A stretch of 64,000 nucleotides of DNA, taken from contig JAGVKG010000040.1 of assembly GCA_020050685.1 (NCBI GenBank), positions 124,001 to 188,000 of the forward strand, in the 5' to 3' direction. This stretch comes from Candidatus Obscuribacterales bacterium (GTDB taxonomy: Bacteria > Cyanobacteriota > Vampirovibrionia > Obscuribacterales > Obscuribacteraceae). The notes beneath the pieces are model-generated. The model ran no database searches, was not told the origin of the DNA, and saw nothing but the letters and a program-made list of their open reading frames with translations. This document shows positions 12,234 to 64,000 of the stretch, one piece after another (the first letter of the stretch is position 1; each line of letters opens with the position of its first letter). The position numbers were made by a program, and so were the translations under genes.

Positions 12234-15200
12234 CTATTTAAGTGTCCCCGAATTAGCAACCATAGCACTTAACAGATCTTCTAGCAAACTCAGCTGCTCT
12301 TGTGGATTTAGCTCTTGTGCTTTTACCAAAATATACGGAGTATTGCCATGGCCACCCGGTGCGCCTGGTTTATATGTAGTACGCATTGCCAAATGTTTGG
12401 GCAGGCGTGCTTGAATTGGCAGCCATGTTTGCAACCGGAAGTCAACGGATAAGCGTATGCCGACTGGTTCTGGTTTGACTGCAGAAACTTGAGCCTTCTG
12501 GGCGATTAACCTCAGCCTGACCACGCTGACCAATTGCTCGACTTCTTGTGGCAATACGCCAAAGCGATCGCGCCATTCGCCGGTCAAGACCACCAGTTCA
12601 CCTTCTGACTTAACATCTGCTAAGCGTTTGTATTCAATAATTCTTTGTTGCTCGTCGGCAACATACGTTTCTGGAATGAAGGCTGTGATGTTGATATCGA
12701 CTTGGGTTTCGACCAGTGCGGCAGTCGTGTCGCCCTTGAGTTCAGCGACGGATTCTTCCAGAAGCTGGCAATAAAGATCGAAGCCGACAGCAATCATGTG
12801 ACCATGTTGCTCTTGGCCTAAGACATTACCAACGCCGCGAATTTCCATATCGCGTAAAGCAATTTGATAGCCAGAGCCTAAATGCGTGAAATCGCGAATT
12901 GCCTTCAAACGACCTTGGGCAGTTTCGCTCAAGACTTTATTGCCGCGATAGAGACAATATGCGTAAGCTTGCAAGTCGGATCGGCCGACACGACCACGCA
13001 ACTGATACATTTGCGCCAAGCCGAGCTTGTCAGCTTCATCGATAATAATTGTATTGACTGAAGGAATATCCAATCCGGATTCGATAATGGTTGTGCATAC
13101 CAAAATATCGGATTGGTGAGAAAGAAATTCCAGCATCACGCCTTCCAGTGCACGCTCGTCCATTTGTCCGTGACCGATGGAAATGCGCGCTTCCGGCACC
13201 AACTCTTTCAATTCAAATGCGACGTTATCAATTGATTCTACGCGGTTATGCACAAAGTAAATTTGTCCGCCGCGTTCCAGTTCGTGCAGAATGGCGGTGC
13301 GCACAAGAGCCGGTTTGTATTCGCCGACAAAAGTTTTGATTGGGGCGCGATTGACAGGTGGCGTGTTGATCAACGACATGTCGCGGGCGCCGGAGAGTGA
13401 AAGATATAATGTACGGGGAATTGGTGTGGCGGACATGGTCAAAACATCAACCATGACTCGCAGTTGTTTGAGCTTTTCTTTGTTGGCTACACCAAAACGT
13501 TGTTCTTCGTCGATCACCACAAGTCCAAGGTCTTTAAAGGCAATATCCTTTTGCAGAAGTCTATGTGTGCCGACTACGACATCGCATTCACCAACTGCCA
13601 GACGTTGACAAACATCCTTTTGTTCGCGGGCTGTGCGGAAACGGCTGAGCAAGCCAACTCTAATTGGATATGGTGCGAAACGATTTGATAATGTATTGAA
13701 ATGTTGTTGGGCCAAAATTGTGGTTGGCACCAAAATCGCCGCTTGCTTGCCTGCCATCACCGATTTGAAAATGGCGCGGATAGCAACTTCGGTTTTACCA
13801 AATCCGACGTCTCCGCAAATCAGGCGATCCATAGGTTTCGTTGATTCCATATCTTTTTTGGCATCAACAATTGCTTGCCACTGATCCGGTGTTTCATCAT
13901 AGGGAAAGGCTTCTTCCATCTCGAATTGCCATGGCGTATCCGGTGCACAAGCAAAACCTTCTTGCTTGGCGCGCATGGCGTACAAATTCACCAAGTCCTC
14001 GGCAATTTGTTTGGTTGATCGCTTAACTCTGCGCTTGGTTGATTCCCACTCGGCACCACCCATGCGCGAAAGTCTCGGCGCAACACCACCAGCACCGCGA
14101 TAACGGCTGAGGAGATTGATTTGATCAACTGGCACATAAAGTCTGTCGTCACCGGAATATTGAATCGTCAAATATTCACGTTCTTGCTTGTCGACCTTGA
14201 CGCGCTCTGTGCCTAGGAACTGACCGATACCTTGTTTGACGTGAACCACAAAATCGCCAACTTGCAAATCGGAAAGCGACCACAAGCGTTCATATGGTTT
14301 GTCTGAAGCTGGGCGACGATAAGCAGACGGTTTGCGTTTTAAGCCAAATAATTCTGCATCGGTAATCGAAACGAGTTTTACATCTTCCAGGCGAAAGCCG
14401 GTAACGAATCCTTGCCGACAAACCCAAATTTCATTTTGGTCGTGCTTGTAAGTTGCGCCACCAGGTTCATTTTTTTGTTCAACTTCTTGAACAAGATTTG
14501 TCAGCGTGCTTTGTTCGTCCAAGCTGCCTGAATGCGCCAGTGTAATTTCGGCCGCTTCTTGTGCCAGCGGTACATATTTAGCTGGGCAATCCCATTCTTT
14601 TAGTAAGCCGATAATGCGTTGGGCTTGTTCGGTTGTGACAACCACTTTGTAGCCATGATTGCGCCATTCGCGCGCTCTTTCGACAAACTGTGGCATTTGA
14701 TTGTTGAAGCGCTCAATTGCATGGCAATCAAATTGAATCGCACTTGCATCGGTACCGCCTTCTTCGTCAAAGGTTGGCATATGAGCCAGAAATGCTCTTT
14801 GCCGCTCTTTCAAATTATTCATTACTTCTTGAGCGCTGGCATGCAAGGGACGCGGCAAGGGCAAAAGCCGACCAGATGAAAGCCCTTCTTCTTGCGTAGC
14901 ATCAAATTTTTCTTGTGCTGTTTCGAGCACCGAGACAATGCTTTCCCACTCGTCAATAAAAATGAGCGAGTCTTCCGGCATGTAATCACAAATGGTGGCA
15001 AATTGTGGATTGAAATAAGGCGCGTAATATTCCGCCGATTCCGGATATCCGCCCTGGCTAAGCTGCGGCAAATCGCTGTCGATAACAGAGCGTAAAGTTT
15101 CACTGGCTTCTGTCGACATTTTTGTTGCCGCATCTTCGACGATAGCTTCTATTTGTCTGGCCGCGTTTTCCGCTTCGTCAAGCACGACCCAAAAGCGTGG

Positions 15201-15905
15201 CGCTACAGTTACTTCGGCAATTTCTTCGCGCGAGCGCTGGCTGTCGATATTGAATATGCGAATTGATTCAATTTCATCACCAAACAATTCAATACGCACG
15301 GGCGGTCCGCAAGAGCTGAAGATATCCGTGATATCGCCGCGAATACTAAATTCACCACGCAAAGAAACAATGCTCTCGCGGCTGTAACCAAGTTTAGCTA
15401 ATGTTCTGCCCAGTTCCTCCGTGTTGATCGTTTGCCCGACTTTGAGATGGAGAGTGAACTTTTCAATCGACTCTTTGTCGAGCACTCGTTGCATTAAGGC
15501 TTTAGCCGGCAAAACAATGCAAGCACGTTCGTCGGATTTATTTGCCAAATTGTTTGCCAGTTTTTGAATCACCTCCATCTGATTGGCAATTGTGTCCTGC
15601 GAATGCAAGACCTGCTCATAAGGTGAAACTTCCGAGGCAGGATAAAAATAAATTGGCGCGCGCGATAAATTGGAAAGTTCTTGATAGTAGCCGGCGGCTT
15701 GGTGATTGTCGGAAGTGACCAGGAAAAGTGGTCGTTTGACATCAGACAAAAGCATGGCCAAAATAAACGACTTTGCCGAGTCAGATAATCCGACAACGGA
15801 TGTGTCGGCTTGTTGGGCACGAGCAGTCCTAGTCAACAGGCGGGCGTATTGCGCGCAATGTTGAATTCTTTGCTGGAGGGCGAGAGACAGTTGGTTGTCG
15901 TGCAC
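12234..15905 (-). CDS. mfd: Transcription-repair coupling factor
   Basis: Mfd (1223 residues) displaces RNA polymerase stalled at lesions and recruits UvrA. The N-terminal UvrB-homology region (about 40-350) is followed by the RNA polymerase interaction domain, CarD-like, around FVVHVKQGIGQFLG. The superfamily 2 translocase comes next, with Walker A GDVGFGKTEVA near residue 700 and DEEQ near 795, and the later motif GRVGRSDLQAYAY. The TRCF C-terminal domain is intact and the length is typical. ATG 15905 is the natural start. The first gene of a minus-strand operon with the PpiC lipoprotein and M20 peptidase. Confidence 0.97.
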   Translation of the reverse strand: MHDNQLSLALQQRIQHCAQYARLLTRTARAQQADTSVVGLSDSAKSFILAMLLSDVKRPLFLVTSDNHQAAGYYQELSNLSRAPIYFYPASEVSPYEQVLHSQDTIANQMEVIQKLANNLANKSDERACIVLPAKALMQRVLDKESIEKFTLHLKVGQTINTEELGRTLAKLGYSRESIVSLRGEFSIRGDITDIFSSCGPPVRIELFGDEIESIRIFNIDSQRSREEIAEVTVAPRFWVVLDEAENAARQIEAIVEDAATKMSTEASETLRSVIDSDLPQLSQGGYPESAEYYAPYFNPQFATICDYMPEDSLIFIDEWESIVSVLETAQEKFDATQEEGLSSGRLLPLPRPLHASAQEVMNNLKERQRAFLAHMPTFDEEGGTDASAIQFDCHAIERFNNQMPQFVERAREWRNHGYKVVVTTEQAQRIIGLLKEWDCPAKYVPLAQEAAEITLAHSGSLDEQSTLTNLVQEVEQKNEPGGATYKHDQNEIWVCRQGFVTGFRLEDVKLVSITDAELFGLKRKPSAYRRPASDKPYERLWSLSDLQVGDFVVHVKQGIGQFLGTERVKVDKQEREYLTIQYSGDDRLYVPVDQINLLSRYRGAGGVAPRLSRMGGAEWESTKRRVKRSTKQIAEDLVNLYAMRAKQEGFACAPDTPWQFEMEEAFPYDETPDQWQAIVDAKKDMESTKPMDRLICGDVGFGKTEVAIRAIFKSVMAGKQAAILVPTTILAQQHFNTLSNRFAPYPIRVGLLSRFRTAREQKDVCQRLAVGECDVVVGTHRLLQKDIAFKDLGLVVIDEEQRFGVANKEKLKQLRVMVDVLTMSATPIPRTLYLSLSGARDMSLINTPPVNRAPIKTFVGEYKPALVRTAILHELERGGQIYFVHNRVESIDNVAFELKELVPEARISIGHGQMDERALEGVMLEFLSHQSDILVCTTIIESGLDIPSVNTIIIDEADKLGLAQMYQLRGRVGRSDLQAYAYCLYRGNKVLSETAQGRLKAIRDFTHLGSGYQIALRDMEIRGVGNVLGQEQHGHMIAVGFDLYCQLLEESVAELKGDTTAALVETQVDINITAFIPETYVADEQQRIIEYKRLADVKSEGELVVLTGEWRDRFGVLPQEVEQLVSVVRLRLIAQKAQVSAVKPEPVGIRLSVDFRLQTWLPIQARLPKHLAMRTTYKPGAPGGHGNTPYILVKAQELNPQEQLSLLEDLLSAMVANSGTLK

Positions 15906-16128: not shown

Positions 16129-17529
16129 ATGAGTACGCAAAAATTGAAGGACAATTCATCTAAATACATCTTGGGTTGGTCGGGGGTAGGCAGGTTCTGG
16201 TCGGACAGATTCCTGATTCTTTCTTGTTCGCTTAGCTTGTGCCTGCCATTGACTATGATGACGACCTTCGCGCGTGACTATGCGCCGGCTGTTGTTTTTC
16301 ATTTGAATCGTGGCGATGAGTTGATGGCTCAAGGGAAATTATCTGAAGCCAGACAAGAGTTTAGTGAGGCTTGCAAAATCGACGAGCATTGCACGGAGGC
16401 AATTAACGATATTGGTTATTGCTATTTGCAGGAAGGCTCGCTGGACAACGCGGCATCTTACTTTGGTCGGGCGCTGACTCTCGAGCCTGCTTATATGCCG
16501 GCTCTGAATAACATGGGCTCGGTTGCCTACCGTCAGCACAAATATGCGGATGCGATTGCTTACTACAAGAAGGCACTTAGCCAAGCGAAAAACGAAGATC
16601 CGGAAATTCACACGAATTTGGCCAATGTCTTGCGCGATTCGGGCAAATTCGATCAAGCAATCGATCATTACCGCCAGGCAATCAAACAAAAACCTGATTA
16701 TGCAAATGCGTACAACAATTTGGGTATGACTTTGTATTTGATTGGCAGATTGCCGGACGCATTGGTGGAAGTCACTAAAGCTACTAATTTGCGTGAGGAT
16801 TATGCGGAAGCTTATTACAATCAAGGTTTGATTTACAAAAAAATGGGTCGCAACAAAGAAGCGATAAGAGCTTGTCAGTTGTCGCTCAAATACGAAACCA
16901 ATCCTGTCTATCAAGATGATACGCGCAAACTTATTGCTCAATTGTCTGCTGCATCTCCGGAGTCTGATCATATTGCCGCAGGAATGATCTTTCTTGCCAA
17001 ACAAAAGTGGTCGCAAGCTGAACAGGAATTTCGCCAAGCAGTGAATGGCGGAGCTGGGGCTGATGCAATTGCTTGGAACAATCTTGGTTTGTCGCTGGCA
17101 AAACAATCAAAGTATGAGCAAGCAATTTCTGCTTACAAAAAAGCATTGTCGCTCAAACCACAGTTTGCTCAGGCGCATTACAATCTTGGTCAATCATTGC
17201 GCGTGATTGGTGATTTGCCTTCTGCAAAGAATGCTTTTAAGGCAGCAATATCTGACAGTGCAGGTAAACATGCACTGGCTCACAATGCGTTGGGAATAGT
17301 CTTGAGACAAGAAGGTGATTTGTCTGGTGCTTTATATGAATACAATCTGGCAATTGATTTCTCGCACGATTCATTGCCAGTGGCGCACTTCAATTCGGCA
17401 ATGGCATTGGAAAGTCTGAATCGATCGCGCGAAGCCGTGAATCAATACAAACTCTATCTAGCCAAAGCACCACACGGCCTGAACGTAAACGAAGCACGCC
17501 TAAGGCTGAAGCTCCTCGTCGGTAACTAG
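16129..17529 (+). CDS. Exported TPR-repeat protein
   Basis: A 466-residue protein with a hydrophobic segment near residues 28-45 (FLILSCSLSLCLPLTMM) that looks like a signal peptide or anchor with a long N-region. It is followed by about 11-12 tetratricopeptide repeats of 34 residues (for example YAEAYYNQGLIYKKMGRNKEA and FAQAHYNLGQSLRVIGDLPSA by composition). A break around residues 260-290 separates two TPR blocks. TPR solenoids bind protein partners, and none is indicated. The gene converges with the 1801-residue beta-helical protein with only 6 bp between stops, so a partnership is possible but speculative. Confidence 0.85.
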   Translation: MSTQKLKDNSSKYILGWSGVGRFWSDRFLILSCSLSLCLPLTMMTTFARDYAPAVVFHLNRGDELMAQGKLSEARQEFSEACKIDEHCTEAINDIGYCYLQEGSLDNAASYFGRALTLEPAYMPALNNMGSVAYRQHKYADAIAYYKKALSQAKNEDPEIHTNLANVLRDSGKFDQAIDHYRQAIKQKPDYANAYNNLGMTLYLIGRLPDALVEVTKATNLREDYAEAYYNQGLIYKKMGRNKEAIRACQLSLKYETNPVYQDDTRKLIAQLSAASPESDHIAAGMIFLAKQKWSQAEQEFRQAVNGGAGADAIAWNNLGLSLAKQSKYEQAISAYKKALSLKPQFAQAHYNLGQSLRVIGDLPSAKNAFKAAISDSAGKHALAHNALGIVLRQEGDLSGALYEYNLAIDFSHDSLPVAHFNSAMALESLNRSREAVNQYKLYLAKAPHGLNVNEARLRLKLLVGN

Positions 17530-17535
17530 AGTTCG

Positions 17536-20500
17536 TTATTGTGTGTTTTGTGAGAGCAGGTCTTCTTGCGATTCTTCGAAGCATGCGCCGGTGTCGACTA
17601 TTTGATCTTCTTCCGATGGTTGGGTTTGTGTTTGATCAAAAGAAATTGGACAAGCAGTTGTAAAAGTAGCGCTATCGAGTGTCACATTTCCGGCTCCAAC
17701 TTGTTCGACAAAAACAACTCCGTTGAATGTACTGACCGTCGTGTTTCCATTAGTGTTTAACAAGGTGATGCCAGCGTTGACAAATACGCTGCCTTTGACA
17801 TTTCCTCCAGGAAGAGTATTTACCGTCACACCTGCTGGGACATTTATTGTGGGCGGTGCTGGTCTCGTCTTCACGAGATTAGCAATAGTGCTTGTCGTGG
17901 TGCCGGCAGCAACCTCAATTCCGCCACCACCCTTTGGTCCGGAAACTGCATAAAACGTATTGCCACTTCCGAGACCGGCATCGCCACCAAGAACATCGCC
18001 TAGCGCCAAAATGCTGATGTTTCCTCCTTGTGCGGCATAAATGCTGTTGTTTCCGAGATCGATATTATTGGCAGTTGATACCAAAGAGACATCGCCACCA
18101 AACGAATCGAGCATGCTGTCGCCGGCAACTGTAAGAAGGTTAGTGGCTCTAAGCGTCAACTTGCCGGCCAGAACAACAGCCGTCTTCGGTAGCGGTGCGT
18201 CAGCGGTCAATCTTACTGTCGGATTTAGTGTACCGGCTCTCGCCATGCCGCTAAAGGTGAGGGCATTACCGGAAGTCAAAGTTATATTAGTTCCGGCAAC
18301 TAGATCATTTGTCGAGTTCAATGTTAATTGGGTACCGCTATTCATGATAATCGCACCAATTTGCGAACTCATGTCGATCGCACTGCCGGTAATGCTCGAC
18401 AGTGATGAAACGTTTACATCCTTTTGCGCAAATACAAACAATCCATTTCCGAGAGAAAGGGCGCCTTGGCTGGCTAATGTAAGGCCGGCTGCAGTTGCTA
18501 TATCTGCATTGAATCCAACAAAGAGCATTGCTGGTGCCACCATTGTGATTTGTCCATTGGCAATTATTTGCGCATTGTTGTCGATAAAAATGTCATCGGC
18601 GGAATTTATTGAGACCGTACCTGTTGCTTGTACCTTGCGAATGCTAGAAGTACCGTCGAAGTGTGGTGCTAATGATGTTACTTTGGTGATTGCATTGCCG
18701 GTGCCAACTGCTACGTTGCCACCGAAAAATTCCAAGGCAACATTATTGAAGGAGGCATTGGCTCCGGTCGGTGTCTTGACTGTAATTGTTCCAGCCAAAG
18801 CATTTTCCGGCCCGGTACGGAAGCGAACGACGCCGGGACCGTTAAGGCTTGATCCGTTGTTCATTATCAAAGTGAGATTACCTTTGGCATTCTCGTTGAT
18901 AAAATTCATGCCCTCAAAAGATGCAATTGAGCCGCCGTTGGTTATGGTAGCTGAGCTGGTATTAAATAGAAATGTCAAAGGCACTTCGTCTGGTCCGTTG
19001 ATTTGACCACCAGGCATTACCGTTAGTGGTGTTGAACCTAAATTGATTTGTGCTGTTTTTGGATCTCCACCGACATCGAGATTGACGAATGACAATGATC
19101 CCCAAACCAGCATCGGGGTCTTTAGGGTCATGGCTACGGTCGCGTTGGGAGCATCATCGGCAACCAGCACATTTATTTGGAAGCTGCCTTCTTGCCCGGC
19201 AATTGCAGTTTTCAAATCGAAAGCAGTAAATTGGCCAGGCAACTCATAGGCAGGAACGTTCATAAGATTTGTGCCACCACCAATTTTTTGATCGGAAACC
19301 GCACCTACACCTGTTAAACCGATGGTCTGTGCGCCAATGTCAGAGTCGCGAGAAACTTGGAATAGCGCGAGTGCTTGTCCGACAGTGACAAGTTGGCGTC
19401 CTTGTAAGGGATCATTGTTTTTCGCTGCGAATATTGTCAGGTCGTTGCCGTCCTGATCAATCGTGCGACTTGCATGCAAGGCGCTGACAAATATTGTGCC
19501 CTCTGTCTCGATATCATTGTAAACAATGCTTGGATCAATTCTATCTGGCCCAGCAACAATTGCACCTGCAGTACCATTAGCGCTGGCATTTCCGACTTGG
19601 AACATAGCACCAGGTAAAGCGACAATCTTTTGAGTTGCTAAAGCGGGAGTGAAATCTGATGTAAATGGTTGAGTGCCAAATGTTTCGATGTGGACAGAAC
19701 CACTGGCAACGCCATTGTTTCCACCGGTCGTGATGATACTGCCGGATTTGTTACCCCGTACTTGCAGAGCGCCGGTTCTAAAGTCAACGTCGCCACCAGC
19801 GCCAGCTGTCTTTGTTGTAGGACTGGCAGTAGCGCCACCACGTGCATCGACAATGCCGCTAATATCAATTCCACCAATGCGATCAGCAATTGGTGTAGTA
19901 CCAAAATCATTTTCGCTGGTTTCAATCGTTACGTTGCCTGCATCTCCACCGTTGCCGGCGAAGAAAGTCTTGCCTTTGGCGTAACCACCGCGCGTAATAA
20001 TATCGCCCATTATCTGGACATGTTCGAAGCTGTTTCCGCCAATGTTTACATCACCGCCATTGCCGGCATCGCCAAAGCCCCAATCTGAGGCACTGGTATT
20101 GATGGTACCGCGAAGCATCCATCTATTAGCAAGTCTCCTATTAGGGCTGGTGCCGGCAGTGAAAATCGTGACATCTCCACCATTGCGGCCGGAAGTATTG
20201 ATACCACCAACGTTGCCTGAACCATTCAAAGTAATTATTACGATACCGCCGTTACCGCCGCCAATACCATGCGTATCCAATACTCCATTGACAAACAAGG
20301 ATGAAGGACCGGTAGTAGGACCGCCCATGCCAAAAATACTAATTGATCCGGCTTGGGCATCAGCTGCTGTAAGAATGCCACCATAAACATCTATTGGTCC
20401 ATTAGACTGTAATAAGACGTCTCCTCCGTCCGAGGGAATAGTTTGGTTCAAACTTTGAGAAGTATTGATTTTAAGGGTGCCGATGCCTCTGGGAGCAGTA

Positions 20501-22941
20501 ATGGATAGATCGCCGCCATTTTGATTTGCGGACAAGATAGCATTTCTCAGAGTTACGGTAGTGCCAGCGTTAAAGATAGCGCCCCCGGCATTTCCGCCTG
20601 GTGAGCTAGTGTTCACGTCTCCCTGTATCCATACACCGCCGCCTCCGCCATCCACGGAAACATTGCCACCACCACCAAAACCTTGGGCTGTCAGTCCACC
20701 CATGGTCACATTTTCTCCGGTGAAGGCGATCGCGCCGGCAATTGCATTGACTGTATTGCCGATTGAACTAGTATTTACCTTTGTGGTGTTGGTAAACAGC
20801 CTTACGCCCGCAGGTACGTTATTGAATACAGCCTTTAACCTTGTTCCGTAATCGGCAAGACCGGCAGTGCCACCAACAATCGGTCCGTCGGTGCTATCCA
20901 AAGTCACGCTACCACTACCGGCACCGCCGCTTGTCACAATCGTTCCTGGTGCGAAATACAGTCCGTTGGTTCCAGTTATTGACACATCACCGCCTGTCGA
21001 TGTTGCTGTTTTGCCGCCAGAGGTATTGATGTTGCCGTTCAAAGAAATGGTGTCATCTGAAGTAGCAATAAAACCGCCGCCAGCGATTTTCCCGTTCAGG
21101 TTAACTACACCGTCGACATTTATGGGCGCATCTCCCGTACTAAGCGTGCTGATGCCACCAGTACCATTTGTGCCGGTTGATTTTATGAAGCCCGACCCGG
21201 CTAATGCTTTTTCTAATGCAGATGTTTGCTTGGCTGTCGTGCCGACTGTGATAGGAGTATTCGATGTTGCGCCGGGAGTAATAGTGCCGGAAGTGAGCGC
21301 GCCGCCAGTGAAGGTTGCTGAGTTTGCATTGGCGATTGCTCCTCGAAGCCCGACTGCTCCGCCATTATTGGCGCCACTAGCATCGGCTGATAGAACTATG
21401 AGGCTCGATGTGCCGTTTGCCATAATGTCTATAGCACCACCATTGCCGCCTGCTGCAGTTGTCTTAATTGCGCCGACAGAAAGATGTCCGGTACCGGCAT
21501 CATCCATCATTGCCACCAAAGTGACATTACCGCCATTGTTTGTGGCTACTTTTGATGTGGAGCTCGTGTCAATGTTGACGCCATCCATAAGAATGCTGCC
21601 GCCAGTTGATGACACGCCCGTAACAGTAAAAGGACCACTTACGGGGCCTACTTGTCCGCCCGTGGCAGGAGTGAAAGCGACGCCGGCCATTATATATAAA
21701 TCACCACCGGATCCGGTTGCGTTTGAAAGATCGATTTTGGTTGCATTTCCTTCCAGCCGCACATCTCCGGATGCGAGAATTGCCAGAGGCATTCCGGAAA
21801 ACACAGGTGAAGTTGTGAGAATAACATTGCCGTTGCTGTTGGCAAAAATCGGATCGCCTGTCAGATTTAATGTACCCAATCTCAGATCGCCATTTTGGGT
21901 AACCATGTTGGCAAGTCCAGCATTGACGTTAACTACGCCTGAGACCATGTCGGGATGGAAACTGGCCAGACCATCACCACCATAAAAATCTACACTGTTC
22001 GCTACAAAAGATCCGCCAAATGCAGAAGTGAGATTCTTCGCTTCGAACGATGCATCGCGGAAAATAATTGATCCTGCTTGTGCTTGCACAAGTCCGCCTG
22101 TATTGTTAAGAGTTAGGTCCGTTGTATTGCCTGTGTTGAAGGTGACGTTGCCGGACATGGCGCTGATCAAGCCACTGTTAGTAATTTGACCGGAACCAGC
22201 GAAGATTTCCAAATTGCCTGACGCAGAAATAGTGCCACCATTGAGCACATCGCCAAGCGCATGCAAAGAAAGATCAACAGGTGCCGTGGATGCTTCGGGT
22301 AGGCTCATCAGGTTTTGCGGCACAACTGTGGAAATAGTTCCGTTCTCGCCCACTTGCAGATCGCCTGCCGAAATCGCAAACGGTTTGGCACCGCGACCAC
22401 CGAGTCCAACTAAAAGTCCGTCCACAGAAACCACGCCACCGACGGTAAATGGTTTGTGACTGACTTGACCAATTGCTGTCACTCCTTCCGGAACAACCAG
22501 GCTGGCGATAGGTGCTGCCATCAAATTTGCTAGCGAGAATCTTCCGCCGGTTGCTTGTCCCGCATCACTGAGTTCGAGATGTTGAGTGCCATGTGCTGCC
22601 ATGTCCATCAAGGCTGCATATTCTGCTGGCGTGACGAGATCACCAATGCCGTAAGATTTTGTCGCTGCTCCCAAATTGAGAGTGGCCCCAAGACCATTGG
22701 CAAAGGCTTGCGCCCCTAAAGTCATTGTTGCCTGCGTGCTTGATAAATCCAGAGCAAGGGCAGCGGACGTGACCGGACTATCTGCTTGCCTGCGCGCTTG
22801 AAAGCCGCCCACTTGCGTAGGCTCTTGGTTAGATTCGCCTCGTTCCCATGCCAGAGAAGGCAGAAGGGCTTGAGTGTTTACAAAACTGACCAACAAAATA
22901 CAGCAAAGCCAACGGCTAATACCGACGCTACGCACGCGCAT
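17536..22941 (-). CDS. Large filamentous-haemagglutinin-like beta-helix surface protein
   Basis: An 1801-residue secreted protein. Residues 1-32 form a signal peptide (RWLCCILLVSFVNTQALLPSLAW). The rest is dominated by short Gly/Asn/Thr/Val-rich beta repeats of the type GGDVSIT, GNVTIET and GAIIMNS, as in filamentous haemagglutinin, FhaB-like adhesins and other right-handed beta helices. An N-terminal TPS-like region spans about 45-200. There are very few cysteines until the end, where the tail DTGACFEESQEDLLSQNTQ contains one of the two late Cys residues. A similar tail closes the partial protein at the right edge of the window. Likely an adhesin or matrix protein outside the outer membrane. 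No TpsB partner is visible. The start ATG follows a GGGGGG tract 7 nt upstream. Confidence 0.8.
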   Translation of the reverse strand: MRVRSVGISRWLCCILLVSFVNTQALLPSLAWERGESNQEPTQVGGFQARRQADSPVTSAALALDLSSTQATMTLGAQAFANGLGATLNLGAATKSYGIGDLVTPAEYAALMDMAAHGTQHLELSDAGQATGGRFSLANLMAAPIASLVVPEGVTAIGQVSHKPFTVGGVVSVDGLLVGLGGRGAKPFAISAGDLQVGENGTISTVVPQNLMSLPEASTAPVDLSLHALGDVLNGGTISASGNLEIFAGSGQITNSGLISAMSGNVTFNTGNTTDLTLNNTGGLVQAQAGSIIFRDASFEAKNLTSAFGGSFVANSVDFYGGDGLASFHPDMVSGVVNVNAGLANMVTQNGDLRLGTLNLTGDPIFANSNGNVILTTSPVFSGMPLAILASGDVRLEGNATKIDLSNATGSGGDLYIMAGVAFTPATGGQVGPVSGPFTVTGVSSTGGSILMDGVNIDTSSTSKVATNNGGNVTLVAMMDDAGTGHLSVGAIKTTAAGGNGGAIDIMANGTSSLIVLSADASGANNGGAVGLRGAIANANSATFTGGALTSGTITPGATSNTPITVGTTAKQTSALEKALAGSGFIKSTGTNGTGGISTLSTGDAPINVDGVVNLNGKIAGGGFIATSDDTISLNGNINTSGGKTATSTGGDVSITGTNGLYFAPGTIVTSGGAGSGSVTLDSTDGPIVGGTAGLADYGTRLKAVFNNVPAGVRLFTNTTKVNTSSIGNTVNAIAGAIAFTGENVTMGGLTAQGFGGGGNVSVDGGGGGVWIQGDVNTSSPGGNAGGAIFNAGTTVTLRNAILSANQNGGDLSITAPRGIGTLKINTSQSLNQTIPSDGGDVLLQSNGPIDVYGGILTAADAQAGSISIFGMGGPTTGPSSLFVNGVLDTHGIGGGNGGIVIITLNGSGNVGGINTSGRNGGDVTIFTAGTSPNRRLANRWMLRGTINTSASDWGFGDAGNGGDVNIGGNSFEHVQIMGDIITRGGYAKGKTFFAGNGGDAGNVTIETSENDFGTTPIADRIGGIDISGIVDARGGATASPTTKTAGAGGDVDFRTGALQVRGNKSGSIITTGGNNGVASGSVHIETFGTQPFTSDFTPALATQKIVALPGAMFQVGNASANGTAGAIVAGPDRIDPSIVYNDIETEGTIFVSALHASRTIDQDGNDLTIFAAKNNDPLQGRQLVTVGQALALFQVSRDSDIGAQTIGLTGVGAVSDQKIGGGTNLMNVPAYELPGQFTAFDLKTAIAGQEGSFQINVLVADDAPNATVAMTLKTPMLVWGSLSFVNLDVGGDPKTAQINLGSTPLTVMPGGQINGPDEVPLTFLFNTSSATITNGGSIASFEGMNFINENAKGNLTLIMNNGSSLNGPGVVRFRTGPENALAGTITVKTPTGANASFNNVALEFFGGNVAVGTGNAITKVTSLAPHFDGTSSIRKVQATGTVSINSADDIFIDNNAQIIANGQITMVAPAMLFVGFNADIATAAGLTLASQGALSLGNGLFVFAQKDVNVSSLSSITGSAIDMSSQIGAIIMNSGTQLTLNSTNDLVAGTNITLTSGNALTFSGMARAGTLNPTVRLTADAPLPKTAVVLAGKLTLRATNLLTVAGDSMLDSFGGDVSLVSTANNIDLGNNSIYAAQGGNISILALGDVLGGDAGLGSGNTFYAVSGPKGGGGIEVAAGTTTSTIANLVKTRPAPPTINVPAGVTVNTLPGGNVKGSVFVNAGITLLNTNGNTTVSTFNGVVFVEQVGAGNVTLDSATFTTACPISFDQTQTQPSEEDQIVDTGACFEESQEDLLSQNTQ

Positions 22942-57633: not shown

Positions 57634-57657
57634 TAATCTACTTCGGATTTGCGCTCG

Positions 57658-58023
57658 GTGAAAATCAAACTTGATGAAAACCTGGGAAGCCGCGGAGTTC
57701 AATTGCTTAGGCAGTTTGGTCATGATGTGGCCACGGTGGCCGAACAACAACTGTGCTCAACAAATGATCGTGATTTGATTGAAATATGCACAAGAGAGGG
57801 GCGATGCTTAGTCACCCTCGATATGGGTTTTGCAAATCCAATTGCGTTTGTTCCTGCTGATTACAGCGGGATTGCAGTTATTCGCTTGCCGCAACAATTT
57901 GTTGTTGAGCAAATTGACGATGCCATGAAAACGTTGATAGCTGGACTTGAGCAAAGTGAAGTGAGAGGTAAATTGTGGGTTGTTCAGCGGGGCAAGATTC
58001 GTGAATACGGTCAGCGAAAGTGA
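57658..58023 (+). CDS. DUF5615 PIN-like protein, likely toxin
   Basis: A PIN-like nuclease-fold protein of 121 residues if GTG 57658 is the start (MKIKLDENL after initiation) or 124 from TTG 57649. KIKLDENL with the first acidic residue, STNDRDLIEIC and RCLVTLDMGFANP supply the acidic cluster typical of PIN-fold active sites. The probable role is an RNase toxin of the DUF433/DUF5615 pair. Follows the DUF433 gene by 24 bp, precedes a third small gene by 1 bp. Confidence 0.85.
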   Translation: MKIKLDENLGSRGVQLLRQFGHDVATVAEQQLCSTNDRDLIEICTREGRCLVTLDMGFANPIAFVPADYSGIAVIRLPQQFVVEQIDDAMKTLIAGLEQSEVRGKLWVVQRGKIREYGQRK

Positions 58024-58024
58024 T

Positions 58025-58306
58025 ATGAGCAAGATTCTTAAATCATCAGACCTTTGTGGACTTAGCAAAGCCGAAAAGAAGAAAGCCTTCATGCGCTGTC
58101 TCGATGCTGCTCAGCCAGTTAGTTCAGAGAAAAGAATGAAAGAACTAAGCAAAGAAATTGCAGGATTTGAGAAGCACTTCAATATGTCTACAAACAAGAT
58201 GTTTGATCTTGTTTGTTTGGGGGAACTCGCCGACAGGGGTGATATTGCTGACTGGCGCAAAGCCTACATGATGCTGCGCACACATAAAGCCAATATCCGC
58301 GCGTAA
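58025..58306 (+). CDS. Small helical protein, third gene of the DUF433/DUF5615 module
   Basis: A 93-residue protein beginning 1 bp after the DUF5615 stop. Rich in Lys/Glu, predicted helical, with a segment MKELSKEIAGFEKHFNMS followed by KMFDLVCLGELADRGD and a conserved-looking WRKAYMML. The pattern FEKxxxMS ... GELAD ... DWxxxY is reminiscent of small antitoxin-like proteins found next to RelE/DUF6516-type toxins, from memory of the pattern, not from a search. Together with the two genes upstream it may form a three-gene toxin-antitoxin operon. Its own function is unknown. Confidence 0.6.
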   Translation: MSKILKSSDLCGLSKAEKKKAFMRCLDAAQPVSSEKRMKELSKEIAGFEKHFNMSTNKMFDLVCLGELADRGDIADWRKAYMMLRTHKANIRA

Positions 58307-58468
58307 ATCCAAGCGGCACAGAAGTGCACATCACTGTCACCGATTTGATCCGCCCGGTCGCGAAATTCTAAGTTCTGAATTGGATCAGAAGATGTTCCAA
58401 CTCCTGGGACAGTCATTGAGGAAGCTTATGCATACTATAATGAACGGGCGGATCAAAGCTCTGATCGG
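58307..58468. other. Gap with a possible gene remnant
   Basis: No intact gene. A short open plus-strand frame (TPGTVIEEAYAYYNERADQ from about 58408) is cut by a stop just upstream, and looks like the end of a degraded gene, though this is weak. Confidence 0.3.
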
Positions 58469-58786
58469 CTAGGCTTCATTGCGGCGGGACCAATATTCTA
58501 GGAATGAGACAAAAAAGTAGCAGGAGCCTATGAAAATGGCGAACATACCAAATGCGGATAAAATAGTCATTGCACTCGGGATTGAATCACCGGGAACTGT
58601 TAAACAAACAGTGAGAGCGAACAATATAGCGGCGCAAGAATATGCAATTAAGAAAGGGCTTGCTAAGTTGAAATCCGTGATCGCTTTGTATAGCACGCCA
58701 AATATCACTGCACCCGTGAGTGCGTAAAAGTTGACAATTCTAACGCAATATATTGGCGTACAGGCGCCAGCAAAATCAGAATACAC
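58469..58786 (-). CDS. Hypothetical small membrane protein
   Basis: A 105-residue protein with three hydrophobic helices (FYALTGAVIFGVLYKAI; FLIAYSCAAILFALTV; ILSAFGMFAIFIGSCYFFV). The start is GTG 58786, poor ribosome binding site. It begins 13 bp after the stop of another small membrane protein on the same strand, which supports it as real. A plus-strand 65-codon frame with a better ribosome binding site overlaps here (58530-58727) and was rejected. Confidence 0.45.
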   Translation of the reverse strand: MYSDFAGACTPIYCVRIVNFYALTGAVIFGVLYKAITDFNLASPFLIAYSCAAILFALTVCLTVPGDSIPSAMTILSAFGMFAIFIGSCYFFVSFLEYWSRRNEA

Positions 58787-58798
58787 TGGCTGAGTAGC

Positions 58799-59089
58799 TC
58801 AAAGCCCCAGAACAAATAACACGAACCAGGCCGTCAAGTACGAATGAACAAAACTTGCGTAGGGTTTGCGACCATTCGTGCGCTGGCGCGCAAGCGTCAG
58901 AATGAGACCTAAGATGGCAAAGGGTACTGATGTGGCCAATGCATGCGGTAGCAAAAGTTCAATGGCGATAGCGCTTTTCTGGTAGGCATATTCAGCCCAA
59001 GTGAGGCAAATGAATGACGCACAAATTGGGATAAGAAATGCACCGATTACCTTAGCGTGCTTGTGGAATGGAGACATAAACGAGCTCAT
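58799..59089 (-). CDS. Hypothetical small membrane protein
   Basis: A 96-residue protein with three hydrophobic helices (VIGAFLIPICASFICLTW; HALATSVPFAILGLILTL; YLTAWFVLFVLGL). ATG 59089 has AGG 10 nt upstream; no family recognised. Followed by the second membrane ORF, making a likely bicistronic unit divergent from higA. Confidence 0.5.
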   Translation of the reverse strand: MSSFMSPFHKHAKVIGAFLIPICASFICLTWAEYAYQKSAIAIELLLPHALATSVPFAILGLILTLARQRTNGRKPYASFVHSYLTAWFVLFVLGL

Positions 59090-59192
59090 GGCATATGAAC
59101 CTAGAGAGTGTTCATTGATAAATATTCCCTACCTTGATGATTTTTCACGGGCTGTTTTGAGCAGGTGATGAGTGAGGGCTCCTGTTCTGCGC

Positions 59193-59221
59193 TTGACGTA
59201 CTACGCGAGACGTAGTATATT
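59193..59221 (+). promoter_or_regulatory. Promoter and operator of the higA module
   Basis: TTGACG (59193-59198) and TATATT (59216-59221) are 17 bp apart, an ideal sigma70-type layout. TACTACG (59199-59205) and CGTAGTA (59211-59217) form a perfect inverted repeat with a 5-nt centre lying in the spacer, so a bound repressor would block the polymerase. The natural candidate is HigA itself. Confidence 0.7.
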
Positions 59222-59227
59222 GAACGT

Positions 59228-59278
59228 ATGATAAAGTCTTTTCGAAAAGGTTGTTTGATACGCAGGAGTGACAGATGA
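59228..59278 (+). pseudogene. Vestigial higB
   Basis: A 16-codon frame MIKSFRKGCLIRRSDR begins 7 bp after the -10. Its first six residues match the start of HigB toxins (MIKSFR-K/H-G). The frame ends in TGA overlapping the higA start as ATGA. HigB toxins are about 92 residues, so nearly the whole toxin has been lost, most likely by internal deletion. The coupled reading frame may now serve as a leader for higA. Read as a remnant; a functional short leader peptide is the alternative. Confidence 0.55.
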
Positions 59279-59592
59279 AGAGTAATAGAAAAAGAGAGAT
59301 AGCGCCTATGCATCCAGGTGAAATTCTGAAGGAAGAATTCATGGTTCCTTTGGAGATGTCTGCTAATCGCCTTAGTTTGTTGTTGGGCGTTCCTTCTGGT
59401 CGGATCACGCAAATTATCAATGGACAACGAGCAATAAGTATCGACACGTCATTGCGATTGTCGCGTTTATTTGGAACGACTCCTGAATTTTGGATGAATC
59501 TACAAAATTTATATGACCTGCAGATGGCTGAAGGTGATTTGGTTGCAGAGATCAACCAGCAGGTGAGGCCGCTTAAAAAGACAGCTGTATGA
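59275..59592 (+). CDS. higA: HigA family antitoxin, apparently without its toxin
   Basis: A 105-residue XRE-type helix-turn-helix protein of the HigA family: MHPGEILKEEFMVPLEMSANRLSLLLGVPSGRITQIINGQRAISIDTSLRLSRLFGTTPEFWMNLQ comprises all family elements (HPGEIL, GVP, INGxRxIS, FGTTPEFWMNLQ are the diagnostic pieces). GGAG lies 8 nt before ATG. HigA normally follows higB by a few bases, and here only a 16-codon remnant precedes it. It should still bind DNA and repress its own promoter. Alternatively it controls other genes. Confidence 0.9.
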   Translation: MKSNRKREIAPMHPGEILKEEFMVPLEMSANRLSLLLGVPSGRITQIINGQRAISIDTSLRLSRLFGTTPEFWMNLQNLYDLQMAEGDLVAEINQQVRPLKKTAV

Positions 59593-59711
59593 GAGCTAGT
59601 GCCGACCTGCGCAGAACGGGCAGCCGTATCCCATCGTTGTCCGTGTGCAAACTTTGGCTGCCTGGGTACATAAGCGTCTGAGAAGAGCGAGATACGTCCA
59701 GCCGCAAGCGC

Positions 59712-60965
59712 TTAACTGAGTGCGTCCTTTAGATCTCTATGATCAAATGCAGATGCCATCCGTTCGATTTCAGCGTTTGTAAGTCCACAGTTTTTTGCAA
59801 CGGTGCGCCATGAAGAAACTGCATTTCCAACTTCTTTTGCCATTCGGCTCGCATCTTTTGCCGCAAGTTCAAAATATTCAGCAACTTCTAGCGCAAGGTC
59901 TAATGAAGCGGTGCTATCGTCAAGATTGATGGAAGTGCTCAACACGCGAGGACCTATATCAATCGGCACCGGATTTAAATCATATGCCGGTGATAACCGC
60001 CATCCTGATTGTCCTGCATAAATAAATCCATGGTTGCGCAAATGGTCATCTGTATTTGAGATCAGTATATTGAAGACAATTCGCCGCCAAAGCGCATGCA
60101 TGTCTTCTTTGGATGCCGCACCATATTGACGAAGAATGTCAACGAATTCCAGATAACTGTGTTGTTCATTGTCTTTCGCATCAAGCATGCTCATTGCTGA
60201 CAAGAAGGGAATCCTCATACCGTCTTTCCGATCGAATCGAGCAAGCAAAAGCACTGGTTTGTTACCGATGACTTCTAATCTCCAGGCTGGAACGAGGATC
60301 TTTGCTTTTTTCGCAAGTGTAAGCGCAACTGCCTCCCAGCGCACCGTGTTGTGCTCATCGGTTTTGCACGGAAATTTGGCTATTGCAAGTTGTCCATTGT
60401 GATCTCGCACAGATGTCTTTGGTCTGCCACCACCAAGGGATGAGCCGGGAGCGAGAAGCAAACGTAAATCTTCATCCGAATCGGTATCATCCAATACATG
60501 CTCAGCTGCTGAAAGCAAACGAGGCAATTCGATTAGCGGCGGTATTTTCATTTTTCCTGACTCAGCAAGAAAGGGTCCGCCCTCCTTTTCAGTAAAGCGT
60601 AATGCGCCAGCACGCGCTTCATCGTCTACCATCAGTAAAAAGTCTATTTCAAAAAGTGTGCGCGGCGTTTGATCTTCGATCTTTGCCCGCCGCCGCTCTG
60701 CCCGGCGCATCAAAATTCGACCCCAGCGATCTGGTGCCGAATCGCCAATGGCTCCAAATAATGGTTTGTCCGATCGAGTGTGATAGGGTCCGGGGGTAAG
60801 TTTGAGCGCAGGCTCAAGGGCAAAGCGATTTGTACGTGCCAACCAGCTCTTGTCGTATTCAAAGGTAGCGCTTTCGGCTCCCTTCCGCACGCGTGTCCAA
60901 AGTTTTCCGACTAGATACGCAACGCCGGAAAGATCTACGTAGACAAATACGGATCGCTCCATCAT
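59712..60965 (-). CDS. hipA: HipA-like toxin kinase
   Basis: A 417-residue HipA-family Ser/Thr kinase toxin. The N-terminal domain (about 1-100) has GxL/W-type FVYVDLSGVAYLVGKLW and the kinase segment begins with GSSLGGGRPKTS, a Gly-rich loop. Catalytic NTDDHLRNHGF and metal-binding YDLNP are intact. E. coli HipA phosphorylates glutamyl-tRNA synthetase; here the target is unknown. The start overlaps the end of hipB by 4 bp, as is typical. Confidence 0.92.
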   Translation of the reverse strand: MMERSVFVYVDLSGVAYLVGKLWTRVRKGAESATFEYDKSWLARTNRFALEPALKLTPGPYHTRSDKPLFGAIGDSAPDRWGRILMRRAERRRAKIEDQTPRTLFEIDFLLMVDDEARAGALRFTEKEGGPFLAESGKMKIPPLIELPRLLSAAEHVLDDTDSDEDLRLLLAPGSSLGGGRPKTSVRDHNGQLAIAKFPCKTDEHNTVRWEAVALTLAKKAKILVPAWRLEVIGNKPVLLLARFDRKDGMRIPFLSAMSMLDAKDNEQHSYLEFVDILRQYGAASKEDMHALWRRIVFNILISNTDDHLRNHGFIYAGQSGWRLSPAYDLNPVPIDIGPRVLSTSINLDDSTASLDLALEVAEYFELAAKDASRMAKEVGNAVSSWRTVAKNCGLTNAEIERMASAFDHRDLKDALS

Positions 60966-61315
60966 GCCTCACTTCTATTGTCTGCCTGAGCAGACTCTTG
61001 TTGTCTCGGGAGCCGGATGCGCTTAGGTAGACGTTCTTCTTCTAGTCTCAGGCCGAGTCGGTCGTGCCTTGGATCGGCTAGATCAGCCAACCGGTCTGCC
61101 AGTCCCATTACGAAGAGAACTCGAGCATAAATACCAAACGACACGCCCGGATCGCCCTTCTCAATCTTGTTTACGGTCGTGCGGCTAATCGATGCCCGCT
61201 CCGCTACCACGGCGATAGGTAGGCGCCGCCTAAGACGAGCATCTCGAATATCGTGGCCGAACTTCCGCATTATCCGAAGCAATGGGATTGGTACTGATGA
61301 ATAGGTGTTTTCCAT
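60962..61315 (-). CDS. hipB: HipB-like antitoxin / XRE regulator
   Basis: A 117-residue HTH protein that should bind and restrain HipA. The helix-turn-helix is at about 35-65 (IAVVAERASISRTTVNKIEKGD). The C-terminal 35 residues are charged and may contact HipA. The start at 61315 is close to a possible -10 (TATAAT, 61330-61325 on the minus strand); an internal ATG at 61270 is an alternative. Translationally coupled with hipA. Confidence 0.85.
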   Translation of the reverse strand: MENTYSSVPIPLLRIMRKFGHDIRDARLRRRLPIAVVAERASISRTTVNKIEKGDPGVSFGIYARVLFVMGLADRLADLADPRHDRLGLRLEEERLPKRIRLPRQQESAQADNRSEA

Positions 61316-61323
61316 ATAAAGCT

Positions 61324-61464
61324 CATTATAGTGGTCGTTATATTGATTAGCGTATAGAATTATGAACGATAAGTCAATTTTGAATAATCCTTTGATTGCG
61401 GATGCTTAATGATCACAATCATAGACTTAAGTAACTTTAACAACCACAATAATGAACGCTAAGT
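61324..61464. promoter_or_regulatory. Operator cluster upstream of hipBA
   Basis: Two inverted copies of a 17-bp element, 61324-61340 and 61438-61454, match at 15 of 17 positions. The direct repeat ATGAACGATAAGT (61362-61374) and ATGAACGCTAAGT (61452-61464) matches at 12 of 13, 90 bp apart. A minus-strand promoter TTGACT (61377-61372), 17 bp, TACGCT (61354-61349) overlaps the first direct repeat. This fits cooperative binding by HipB with a DNA loop, but is inference. Confidence 0.55.
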
Positions 61465-61527
61465 TTTTTGGTCAAGTACGTCTATTGATTGTTGACGGCT
61501 GTACGAGAGCTCAATGTTTTTCTACGA

Positions 61528-62235
61528 TTATTTCCCTGCCAATATATTGGAGGCGAGTGTTTGAAGATCGCGATTGGCGATTGCTTTGAGTCGGTGTTTG
61601 ATGACACGCGAATAATATTCCCTCTCTGTTTTTGTTAAGGGCTTTCCGCCGATGATTTTTTCTATTATGTCGACTTGTTTAATTGAGAAGATCTGATTGA
61701 GGGCTTCTCGCAAAGTTTGATCGCGCTCGCGTTCCAACTGCCGCGCAAGGCTTTCTTCCTTTTTGATTTGAGAATTTACAATATAGTTGGTAAACGTTTT
61801 TATCAAACGATCTGGGCTGAGTTTGATGCTACCAATATTGATATCAACACGCTTTTGGAATGATTCGGCAATCTTTTCGGATAATCCAGGCTCTTGTCCT
61901 CGCAAGTAACTAGCAAGTTTGAATTTGGATTGCGCGCTTTCCGGTATTAAGGCAAGAAGGTAAAGCGTGACAGCCAGCAGGAGTCGAAAGCGTTTGCGAA
62001 GCGTGGCTGATGGTAACTGTTTTTCGAGTATGTCTAAGTCAAAGCGCGATGATAATTCTTTGTTCTGGAGACAGGTAGTTAGAACAATTGGAAATCCCTC
62101 CAGCAATCTTATATCGCCAGTCTTGATCAATTCCGATAGCGTGGTAGCCGGATCTTCCGTGCCGGATTGTTCAAGCAGTGGATATCCAAATGATGCAAGA
62201 TCGTTAAGTAGGATGCGCTTTTTTATGGTATCCAT
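61528..62235 (-). CDS. Uncharacterised helical protein with HTH-like C-terminus
   Basis: A 235-residue protein I cannot assign. It overlaps the end of the nucleotidyltransferase gene by 13 bp. Predicted mostly helical; a hydrophobic stretch (RFRLLLAVTLYLLALIP) lies near residue 90. The C-terminal 75 residues include a heptad-like ESLARQLERERDQTL, then GKPLTKTEREYYSRVIKHRL, a pattern like sigma70 region 4 or a DNA-binding HTH and recalled, without a search, in proteins paired with nucleotidyltransferases. It may act as the target or antitoxin of the partner. Confidence 0.65.
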   Translation of the reverse strand: MDTIKKRILLNDLASFGYPLLEQSGTEDPATTLSELIKTGDIRLLEGFPIVLTTCLQNKELSSRFDLDILEKQLPSATLRKRFRLLLAVTLYLLALIPESAQSKFKLASYLRGQEPGLSEKIAESFQKRVDINIGSIKLSPDRLIKTFTNYIVNSQIKKEESLARQLERERDQTLREALNQIFSIKQVDIIEKIIGGKPLTKTEREYYSRVIKHRLKAIANRDLQTLASNILAGK

Positions 62236-62855
62236 TTTTCAAGTTCCTTTGTGGCTTTTGTTGTGTCGAAATCTTCGCGGTTCATTTCTTCTAGGAAATA
62301 TTTGAAATTCTTTTTGCATTTTTCAGGGTTGGTATCGTAACCGGCAGTATCAATGTATCGTCTGGTTAGGTGAAGCAAGTCGAGGTCGTTTTTCTCAGCC
62401 CTCAGAAGGCACAGGCAATCTTGCACATCTACTCCACTTCCTCGAAACATTTTGGAAATGATTAGATCGTATGAATTCAACACACCCAATTGAAAGTATT
62501 TGAATTTGCGAATAAGCGTATGCATTGAGGGAAGGTGAGGTGAATCCAGTAGGGCTGTGCAGTAAATTTGACTACCGGGAAATAAGTCGAAGATAAATGT
62601 GTTATCCGGGTGCTTCCATCCATACTGGGTTGCTTGCTTGTAGCCGAGCCGCTGTAATGTTTGAATCAGTGCTTTGTGATGGTTGGGATCCGGTATCAAT
62701 AGATCAATGTCTTTTGTCGATTCCTTGTAACCCTTCAATGTAAGTGCCGTTCCACCACAAGCAACTGCTAGGATTTTTGTTCTGAGAGACCTGTCCCAAT
62801 CCTCCAGAACTGAAAAAAGCCGGGTTGAATTTATTCGATATTCATTAGATTGCAT
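62223..62855 (-). CDS. Nucleotidyltransferase-fold protein (DUF6036-like), possible toxin
   Basis: A 210-residue protein of the nucleotidyltransferase superfamily. CGGTALTLKGYKESTKDIDLL gives the Gly-Gly helix followed by the D-x-D metal-binding pair (quoted by composition); the third acidic residue is likely in NTFIFDLFPG. This pattern is found in DUF6036 and AbiEii-type proteins, many of which modify tRNA or proteins as toxins. Start at 62855 (GAG 7 nt upstream); ATG 62894 lacks a ribosome binding site. Coupled to the helical protein by a 13-bp overlap. Confidence 0.75.
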   Translation of the reverse strand: MQSNEYRINSTRLFSVLEDWDRSLRTKILAVACGGTALTLKGYKESTKDIDLLIPDPNHHKALIQTLQRLGYKQATQYGWKHPDNTFIFDLFPGSQIYCTALLDSPHLPSMHTLIRKFKYFQLGVLNSYDLIISKMFRGSGVDVQDCLCLLRAEKNDLDLLHLTRRYIDTAGYDTNPEKCKKNFKYFLEEMNREDFDTTKATKELEKWIP

Positions 62856-62883
62856 AAGAAAGCTCAATAAATGTATAAAAACG

Positions 62884-62959
62884 TACAATTTCATTTTAAC
62901 ATATGATTTGCAATTGTATGATTTTATGCTAATATTGTACTTTTATATACAATATTGTA
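62884..62959. promoter_or_regulatory. AT-rich region with repeated TACAAT sites and a 12-bp palindrome
   Basis: TACAATATTGTA (62948-62959) is a perfect palindrome. Half-sites TACAATT (62884), CAATTGTA (62911-62918) and AATATTGTA (62931-62939 region) occur beside it. It lies just upstream of the nucleotidyltransferase gene and probably contains its promoter and operators. Confidence 0.5.
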
Positions 62960-63136: not shown

Positions 63137-64000
63137 TTACTGACTATTTTGGGCAATTGGTCCAGATTCGGACTCTTCATCGCATGTATCGCCGGTGTCT
63201 ATATAAATATCTAAGTCTGATTGATTGACTTCATAGCCAATATTTTGCGAGGTCGCTGTGGTTGTAATGTCGTTTTCGAAGATGATTGCTGATGCCGGGA
63301 GCCTGCCGGTTGAAAATATGAGCTTGCGTCCGTCGGCCGTAAAGGAATTGTCTGTGGATGTTATGCCTGATTTACCGAAATAAACTTTTCCTTCATTGAG
63401 GAGGGTAACGGTATTTCCGGCAAGACTACCGACCACTGGCATCCCTGGGACCGGACCAATGACTATTGCCATCAGGTGCTTGCTTCCCATGCCAGTTCCC
63501 AGAAGCGCAACATCACTTGCAATTGAAATGGATCCAAACCTTTGGTCAGTATTCTGAATCGTCAGGCTGCCGCCAATTGATTTGACCTCGGAGCCGGCTG
63601 CCACTTGCAAGACTCCACCCTTGGACACAAGATCCATTGGACCGCCAGTTGAATGTACATTGTGTACCGTCAAGCCGCCCACCGCTGAAACCAATAAACT
63701 GGAAGCCGTTGAGTCCAACAAATTCAATGCTTTTGTATTTGCAATGTTGACGATACCACCGGTAGTGGCAGCAAGATTCTCCGTCTCAACTTTAATGGCG
63801 GACTTAGCCGAACCGAAATTTCCATTTGATCCTACTAGTGTCAGCGTGCTTGCTCTCAGAACTTTGCCCGCCATCTGAGTTACACTGCCTGTGCCATTCA
63901 ATGTAATTGAAAACGGTTTGTCAGCAGAACCTATATTTTCATTGAGAATAATAGAGCCCGTTGTGGAAAGTGATACTTCACCAACCAGTCCACCAGCAAT
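63137..64000 (-). CDS. Beta-helix surface protein, C-terminal part (cut by window edge)
   Basis: The C-terminal 287 residues of a large exported protein whose frame stays open to base 64000. The sequence is made of Gly/Asn/Thr/Val-rich beta repeats (GSIIL, AGKVLRASTLTLVGSNGNFG, GGLTVHNVHSTGG) as in filamentous haemagglutinins. The C-terminal tail DTGDTCDEESESGPIAQNSQ aligns with that of the 1801-residue protein at 17536 (DTG-x-C-x-EES, ending N-[ST]-Q), which marks a common family or a common C-terminal processing signal. An internal ATG at 63901 should not be taken as the start. Confidence 0.75.
   Translation of the reverse strand: MAGGLVGEVSLSTTGSIILNENIGSADKPFSITLNGTGSVTQMAGKVLRASTLTLVGSNGNFGSAKSAIKVETENLAATTGGIVNIANTKALNLLDSTASSLLVSAVGGLTVHNVHSTGGPMDLVSKGGVLQVAAGSEVKSIGGSLTIQNTDQRFGSISIASDVALLGTGMGSKHLMAIVIGPVPGMPVVGSLAGNTVTLLNEGKVYFGKSGITSTDNSFTADGRKLIFSTGRLPASAIIFENDITTTATSQNIGYEVNQSDLDIYIDTGDTCDEESESGPIAQNSQ

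Follow-up and report, generated by a model that had tools for sequence, protein, structure and literature searches.

A cysteine-bearing C-terminal tail shared by two beta-helix surface proteins of an Obscuribacterales bacterium

Two beta-helix surface proteins, here called 17536 and 63137 after the positions of their genes, share a 38-residue acidic, Cys-bearing C-terminal tail, IVDTGACFEESQEDLLSQNTQ and YIDTGDTCDEESESGPIAQNSQ, each ending at the stop codon. Both are encoded in a 64,000-nucleotide stretch (the window; contig JAGVKG010000040.1, positions 124,001 to 188,000) of a Candidatus Obscuribacterales bacterium, a non-photosynthetic, uncultured relative of the cyanobacteria. Their architecture is well supported: the helix ends and the 38-aa tail follows at the place where a linker and an end domain are usual. 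We tentatively read the tail, with a probability of about 0.4, as a soluble end-piece specific to the lineage and maintained by selection, with a thiol at its tip that may serve retention or cross-linking.

Sequence and conservation of the tail

The 17536 gene (17536..22941, minus strand) encodes an 1801-aa beta-helix surface protein with a signal peptide recognized by inspection and without the C-terminal end domain, while the window holds the C-terminal 287 aa of the 63137 protein (63137..64000, minus strand), the 5' part of its gene lying outside. In the 63137 protein, a terminal beta-helix block (GKVYFGKSGITS to FSTGRLPASAIIFENDITTTA; 63254..63475, minus strand) is homologous to the block that precedes the linker and end domain in its relatives, and residues 176-249 match the block profile of these relatives with 52.3 bits (E 1e-14). 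The corresponding block of the 17536 protein (PAGVTVNTLPGG to NVTLDSATFTTA; 17653..17838, minus strand) has strongly diverged and is missed by the same profile, its one line of support being the pairwise match to the 63137 protein (30% identity and E 0.002 by BLASTP across the last 111 aa, tail included). A structure model of the 287-aa fragment, made without an alignment, was uninformative (mean pLDDT 41.5).

Directly after the terminal block, the 63137 protein continues into the tail TSQNIGYEVNQSDLDIYIDTGDTCDEESESGPIAQNSQ and its stop codon (63137..63253, minus strand); the tail CPISFDQTQTQPSEEDQIVDTGACFEESQEDLLSQNTQ with its stop (17536..17652, minus strand) forms the C-terminus of the 1801-aa protein. 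The last residues before the stop codon, TAA in both genes, are QTQPSEEDQIVDTGACFEESQEDLLSQNTQ in the 17536 protein and VNQSDLDIYIDTGDTCDEESESGPIAQNSQ in the 63137 protein. Both tails extend 38 residues past the last helix strand and carry nine acidic and no basic residues, with two Cys in the 17536 and one in the 63137 tail. Neither contains a membrane segment (maximum 15-residue Kyte-Doolittle mean of -0.22). The conserved motif can be written D-T-G-x(1,2)-C-x-E-E-S-x(6)-Q-N-[ST]-Q, and both termini are as the first-pass annotation had described them, D-T-G...C-x-E-E-S...Q-N-[ST]-Q. Its remark that Cys is scarce also holds: the 1801-aa protein has four, of which one opens the tail, one belongs to the motif, and two lie in the signal peptide as judged by inspection, and the visible 287 aa of the 63137 protein have one. 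The two genes, however, lie 45.6 kb apart and not 40 kb.

The last 30 residues of the two proteins align with a score of 52 (BLOSUM62, 11/1), which was reached by 2 of 200,000 shuffles, while the best score among 1,190 other real C-termini of open reading frames was 29; the acidic composition inflates such tail scores. Four of the ten conserved motif codons differ synonymously between the tails, placing the likeness at the protein level and arguing against a recent DNA copy. In the window pair, the tail scores higher (53) than the terminal block (34). The opposite holds for the linkers of relatives: when their blocks are less than 45% identical, only 1 of 325 pairs reaches a score of at least 52 over the 60 residues past the block. 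The contrast speaks for selection on the tail, which we consider likely, and against a mere decayed linker, within the bounds set by the acidity of the tails and by having just two copies from one genome, one of them in a gene cut by the window edge.

The giant beta-helix family and its usual C-terminal end

By sequence comparison, the 17536 protein and, through its helix block, the 63137 protein are members of an order-specific family of giant beta-helix proteins, which no Pfam or NCBIfam family covers. The family N-terminal domain of the 1801-aa protein (22045..22704, minus strand) was detected with a profile built from three proteins of one Obscuribacterales genome (G001; E 1.3e-16), a match hidden by the default HMMER filters and seen with the filters off, and residues 58-478 gave a tblastn match with 36% identity (E 7.6e-44). 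The full 1801-aa protein as a query retrieved no relative from the genome-contig collection searched. At E <= 1e-6, its N-terminal domain was found in 37 of the 52 Obscuribacterales genomes, a single genome having as many as 45 copies; the remaining 385 genomes of the phylum sample gave none at E <= 1e-10. Relatives of the 63137 protein were found in 21 of the 52 order genomes, with E-values down to 5.8e-26, and these matches stop before the tail motif. Many family proteins exceed 5,000 aa; two open reading frames of one genome (G030) span 15,561 and 15,075 aa, and a 25,007-aa open frame with the family terminal block and end domain lies around 174658-221832 of another contig (G051:C2).

Family members share the N-terminal domain, the helix repeats, and a terminal block homologous to that of the window proteins. 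In the usual members, 215-518 residues come after this block, made up of a linker that varies and a conserved ~190-aa C-terminal domain; the window proteins carry the 38-aa Cys tail instead. We found this end domain on about 100 distinct family members longer than 400 aa (e.g. the ORF ends of L107, L125, L145, and L171). It is absent from Pfam and NCBIfam, and no relative of solved structure was found. The Pfam family FecR matches only 1 of 32 end-domain members (E 7e-4), so that "FecR-like" is a mere label for it. The domain is also present on stand-alone proteins of ~220-300 aa with signal-peptide-like starts (L306-L316; L096:11417-12076).

A search of all open reading frames and all frames of the window with HMMER filters off found no end domain. 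Thus, both window proteins are members that lack the C-terminal domain and have an added 38-residue tail. Truncated pseudogenes or assembly errors that deleted the end domain could produce such a picture, and the region downstream of the 63137 gene is rich in toxin-antitoxin-like genes (HipA, DUF6036). However, the same tail ends two separate genes and no remnant of the end domain lies downstream in any frame, so that we regard an artefact as scarcely credible. Thirteen short relatives end 0-4 residues past the block with neither tail nor end domain, indicating that ending without the domain is a natural form. All but one of these 13 come from three genomes (G018, G019, and G020), with lengths of ~900-1,130 aa (e.g. 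L246, L250, L258, L268, L270, L277, L281, and L292). Two more open reading frames lacking the domain end 43 and 120 residues past the block in unrelated tails (L295, L247).

The tail occurs in no surveyed relative, neither in the ~100 proteins with the end domain nor in the 13 short ones, which speaks against a general signal. A tail-only profile found nothing significant in the 52 order genomes or the 386-genome phylum sample, and searches of viral contigs and plasmids gave no match. Exact motif patterns brought up nothing from the order genomes but a chance match and an unrelated DTGxxCPEEC protein. Since phmmer with one tail as the query did not retrieve the other, profile searches have low power for copies that have diverged further. 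The Mfd protein of the window (12234-15905) shares 69-71% identity with Candidatus Obscuribacterales genomes and about 42-48% with Gastranaerophilales and other Melainabacteria; even the nearest genomes compared (G050, G051, G001, G007, and G052) reach about 71% at most in this protein.

Candidate roles of the tail

In being a short and conserved stretch at the very end of surface proteins, the tail resembles the LPXTG, PEP-CTERM, GlyGly-CTERM, and MYXO-CTERM sorting tails, in which a hydrophobic helix is followed by a basic end. In contrast to these, the window tail has neither a hydrophobic segment nor a basic residue. The C-terminal domain of type IX secretion (Por) is likewise a C-terminal element on surface proteins, but there the signal folds into a beta-sandwich of some 80 aa, whereas the window proteins carry a 38-aa acidic tail. 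The tail matched no NCBIfam or Pfam family and no catalogued sorting signal was found in it, in agreement with the earlier statement that it differs from LPXTG, PEP-CTERM, and Por.

It was also proposed that the tail represents a novel type of C-terminal signal, for sorting or covalent attachment, that a dedicated enzyme reads. The conserved extreme C-terminus, the invariant Cys in two diverged exported proteins, and the lack of any known signal in the tail would fit this idea. On the other hand, no third tailed protein turned up in the 52 order or 386 phylum genomes, and the tripartite layout of motif, hydrophobic helix, and basic end is absent. Furthermore, the suggested check for a processing enzyme yielded no obvious candidate among the 20 window proteins scanned, including TPR, mnmA, amidase, PPIC-type isomerase, glutamine synthetase III, LpxI, HipA, and DUF6036 neighbours. 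What stands of the proposal is that the tail is real, lies at the extreme C-terminus, and is more conserved than the helix rung. As two paralogues in one genome make a signal indistinguishable from a subfamily trait, we rate a dedicated-enzyme signal as unlikely and a sorting or attachment role in general, predicted from the two copies, as possible. A C-terminal sorting module may more plausibly be sought in the order-wide end domain than in the tail, and this domain is a candidate order-specific module for sorting, anchoring, or processing.

A disulfide anchor would be a further way of holding such proteins at the surface. In the HMW subfamily of two-partner secretion, the C-terminus forms a disulfide loop (PMC4873976, PMC5422565), and the TpsA adhesins HMW1 and HxuA resemble the window proteins in being exported beta-helices with Cys near the C-terminus (PMC4873976, PMC5422565); two Cys even fall within the last 38 residues of the 1801-aa protein. 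The HMW type, however, requires a loop-forming Cys pair and a TpsB partner. The pair in HxuA lies at 855 and 861 of 884, six residues apart (PMC4873976), whereas the two Cys of the 17536 tail are 23 residues apart and the 63137 tail has a single one, so that the disulfide-loop mechanism does not fit. In addition, the 17536 protein has no match to the Pfam TPS (haemagglutination activity) domain. We therefore rejected an anchor of this type as very improbable.

The tail could also be an inert leftover, the first part of the linker kept after loss of an ancestral end domain and shared by the two paralogues through descent, with no function. Its position is exactly that of the linker in relatives. 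Many of these linkers are acidic and contain, ~200 residues from the C-terminus, a P-I-[AS]-Y step; one of the tails contains DEESESGPIAQNSQ. Yet equating the tail with this family linker motif, an acidic stretch with PI[AS]Y, failed a shuffle test, with the match not significant for either tail (521 of 5000 shuffles for one and 4539 of 5000 for the other), and at such divergence the linkers of relatives cannot be aligned, whereas the tails can. On balance, we think a functionless remnant somewhat unlikely.

The preferred reading, a selected soluble end-piece, would work as follows. The 38-residue tail begins at the end of the last helix strand and replaces both the linker and the ~190-aa end domain, and selection would keep it as the lineage-specific end-piece of a tailed subfamily. 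At the distal end of the exported helix it would expose a single thiol, which may pair with another tail or with a partner protein; by this route, independent of the end domain, the tailed proteins would be retained or cross-linked. We infer this role of the thiol from the conserved Cys alone. A bolder version, in which the family has three exchangeable ends (the conserved end domain, a bare helix end, and the Cys tail) and the Cys tail is a new membrane-free attachment or cross-linking signal that acts through its Cys and stands in for the end domain, appears distinctly unlikely.

Genomic setting and implications

The 17536 gene is flanked by a TPR gene and mnmA. These two adjoin directly at the loci L001, L002, and L004, so that the position of the 17536 gene is lineage-specific among the genomes compared. 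Its stop codon converges with that of the neighbouring gene (16129-17529), only 6 bases away. Beside the 63137 gene lies a cluster of toxin-antitoxin-like genes (57637-62894) with HipA and an HTH partner, a DUF6036 nucleotidyltransferase and its partner, and, by inspection, HigBA-like pairs.

If the tail were a true attachment signal, a short tail with a thiol would have taken the place of a folded end domain in a bacterium that has giant surface proteins by the dozen, and we know of no catalogued signal that does so. To our knowledge, almost nothing has been established about the surface biology of this group. Even if the tail is no signal, the survey singles out the end domain found across the order as the likely, and testable, sorting or anchoring module of these proteins.
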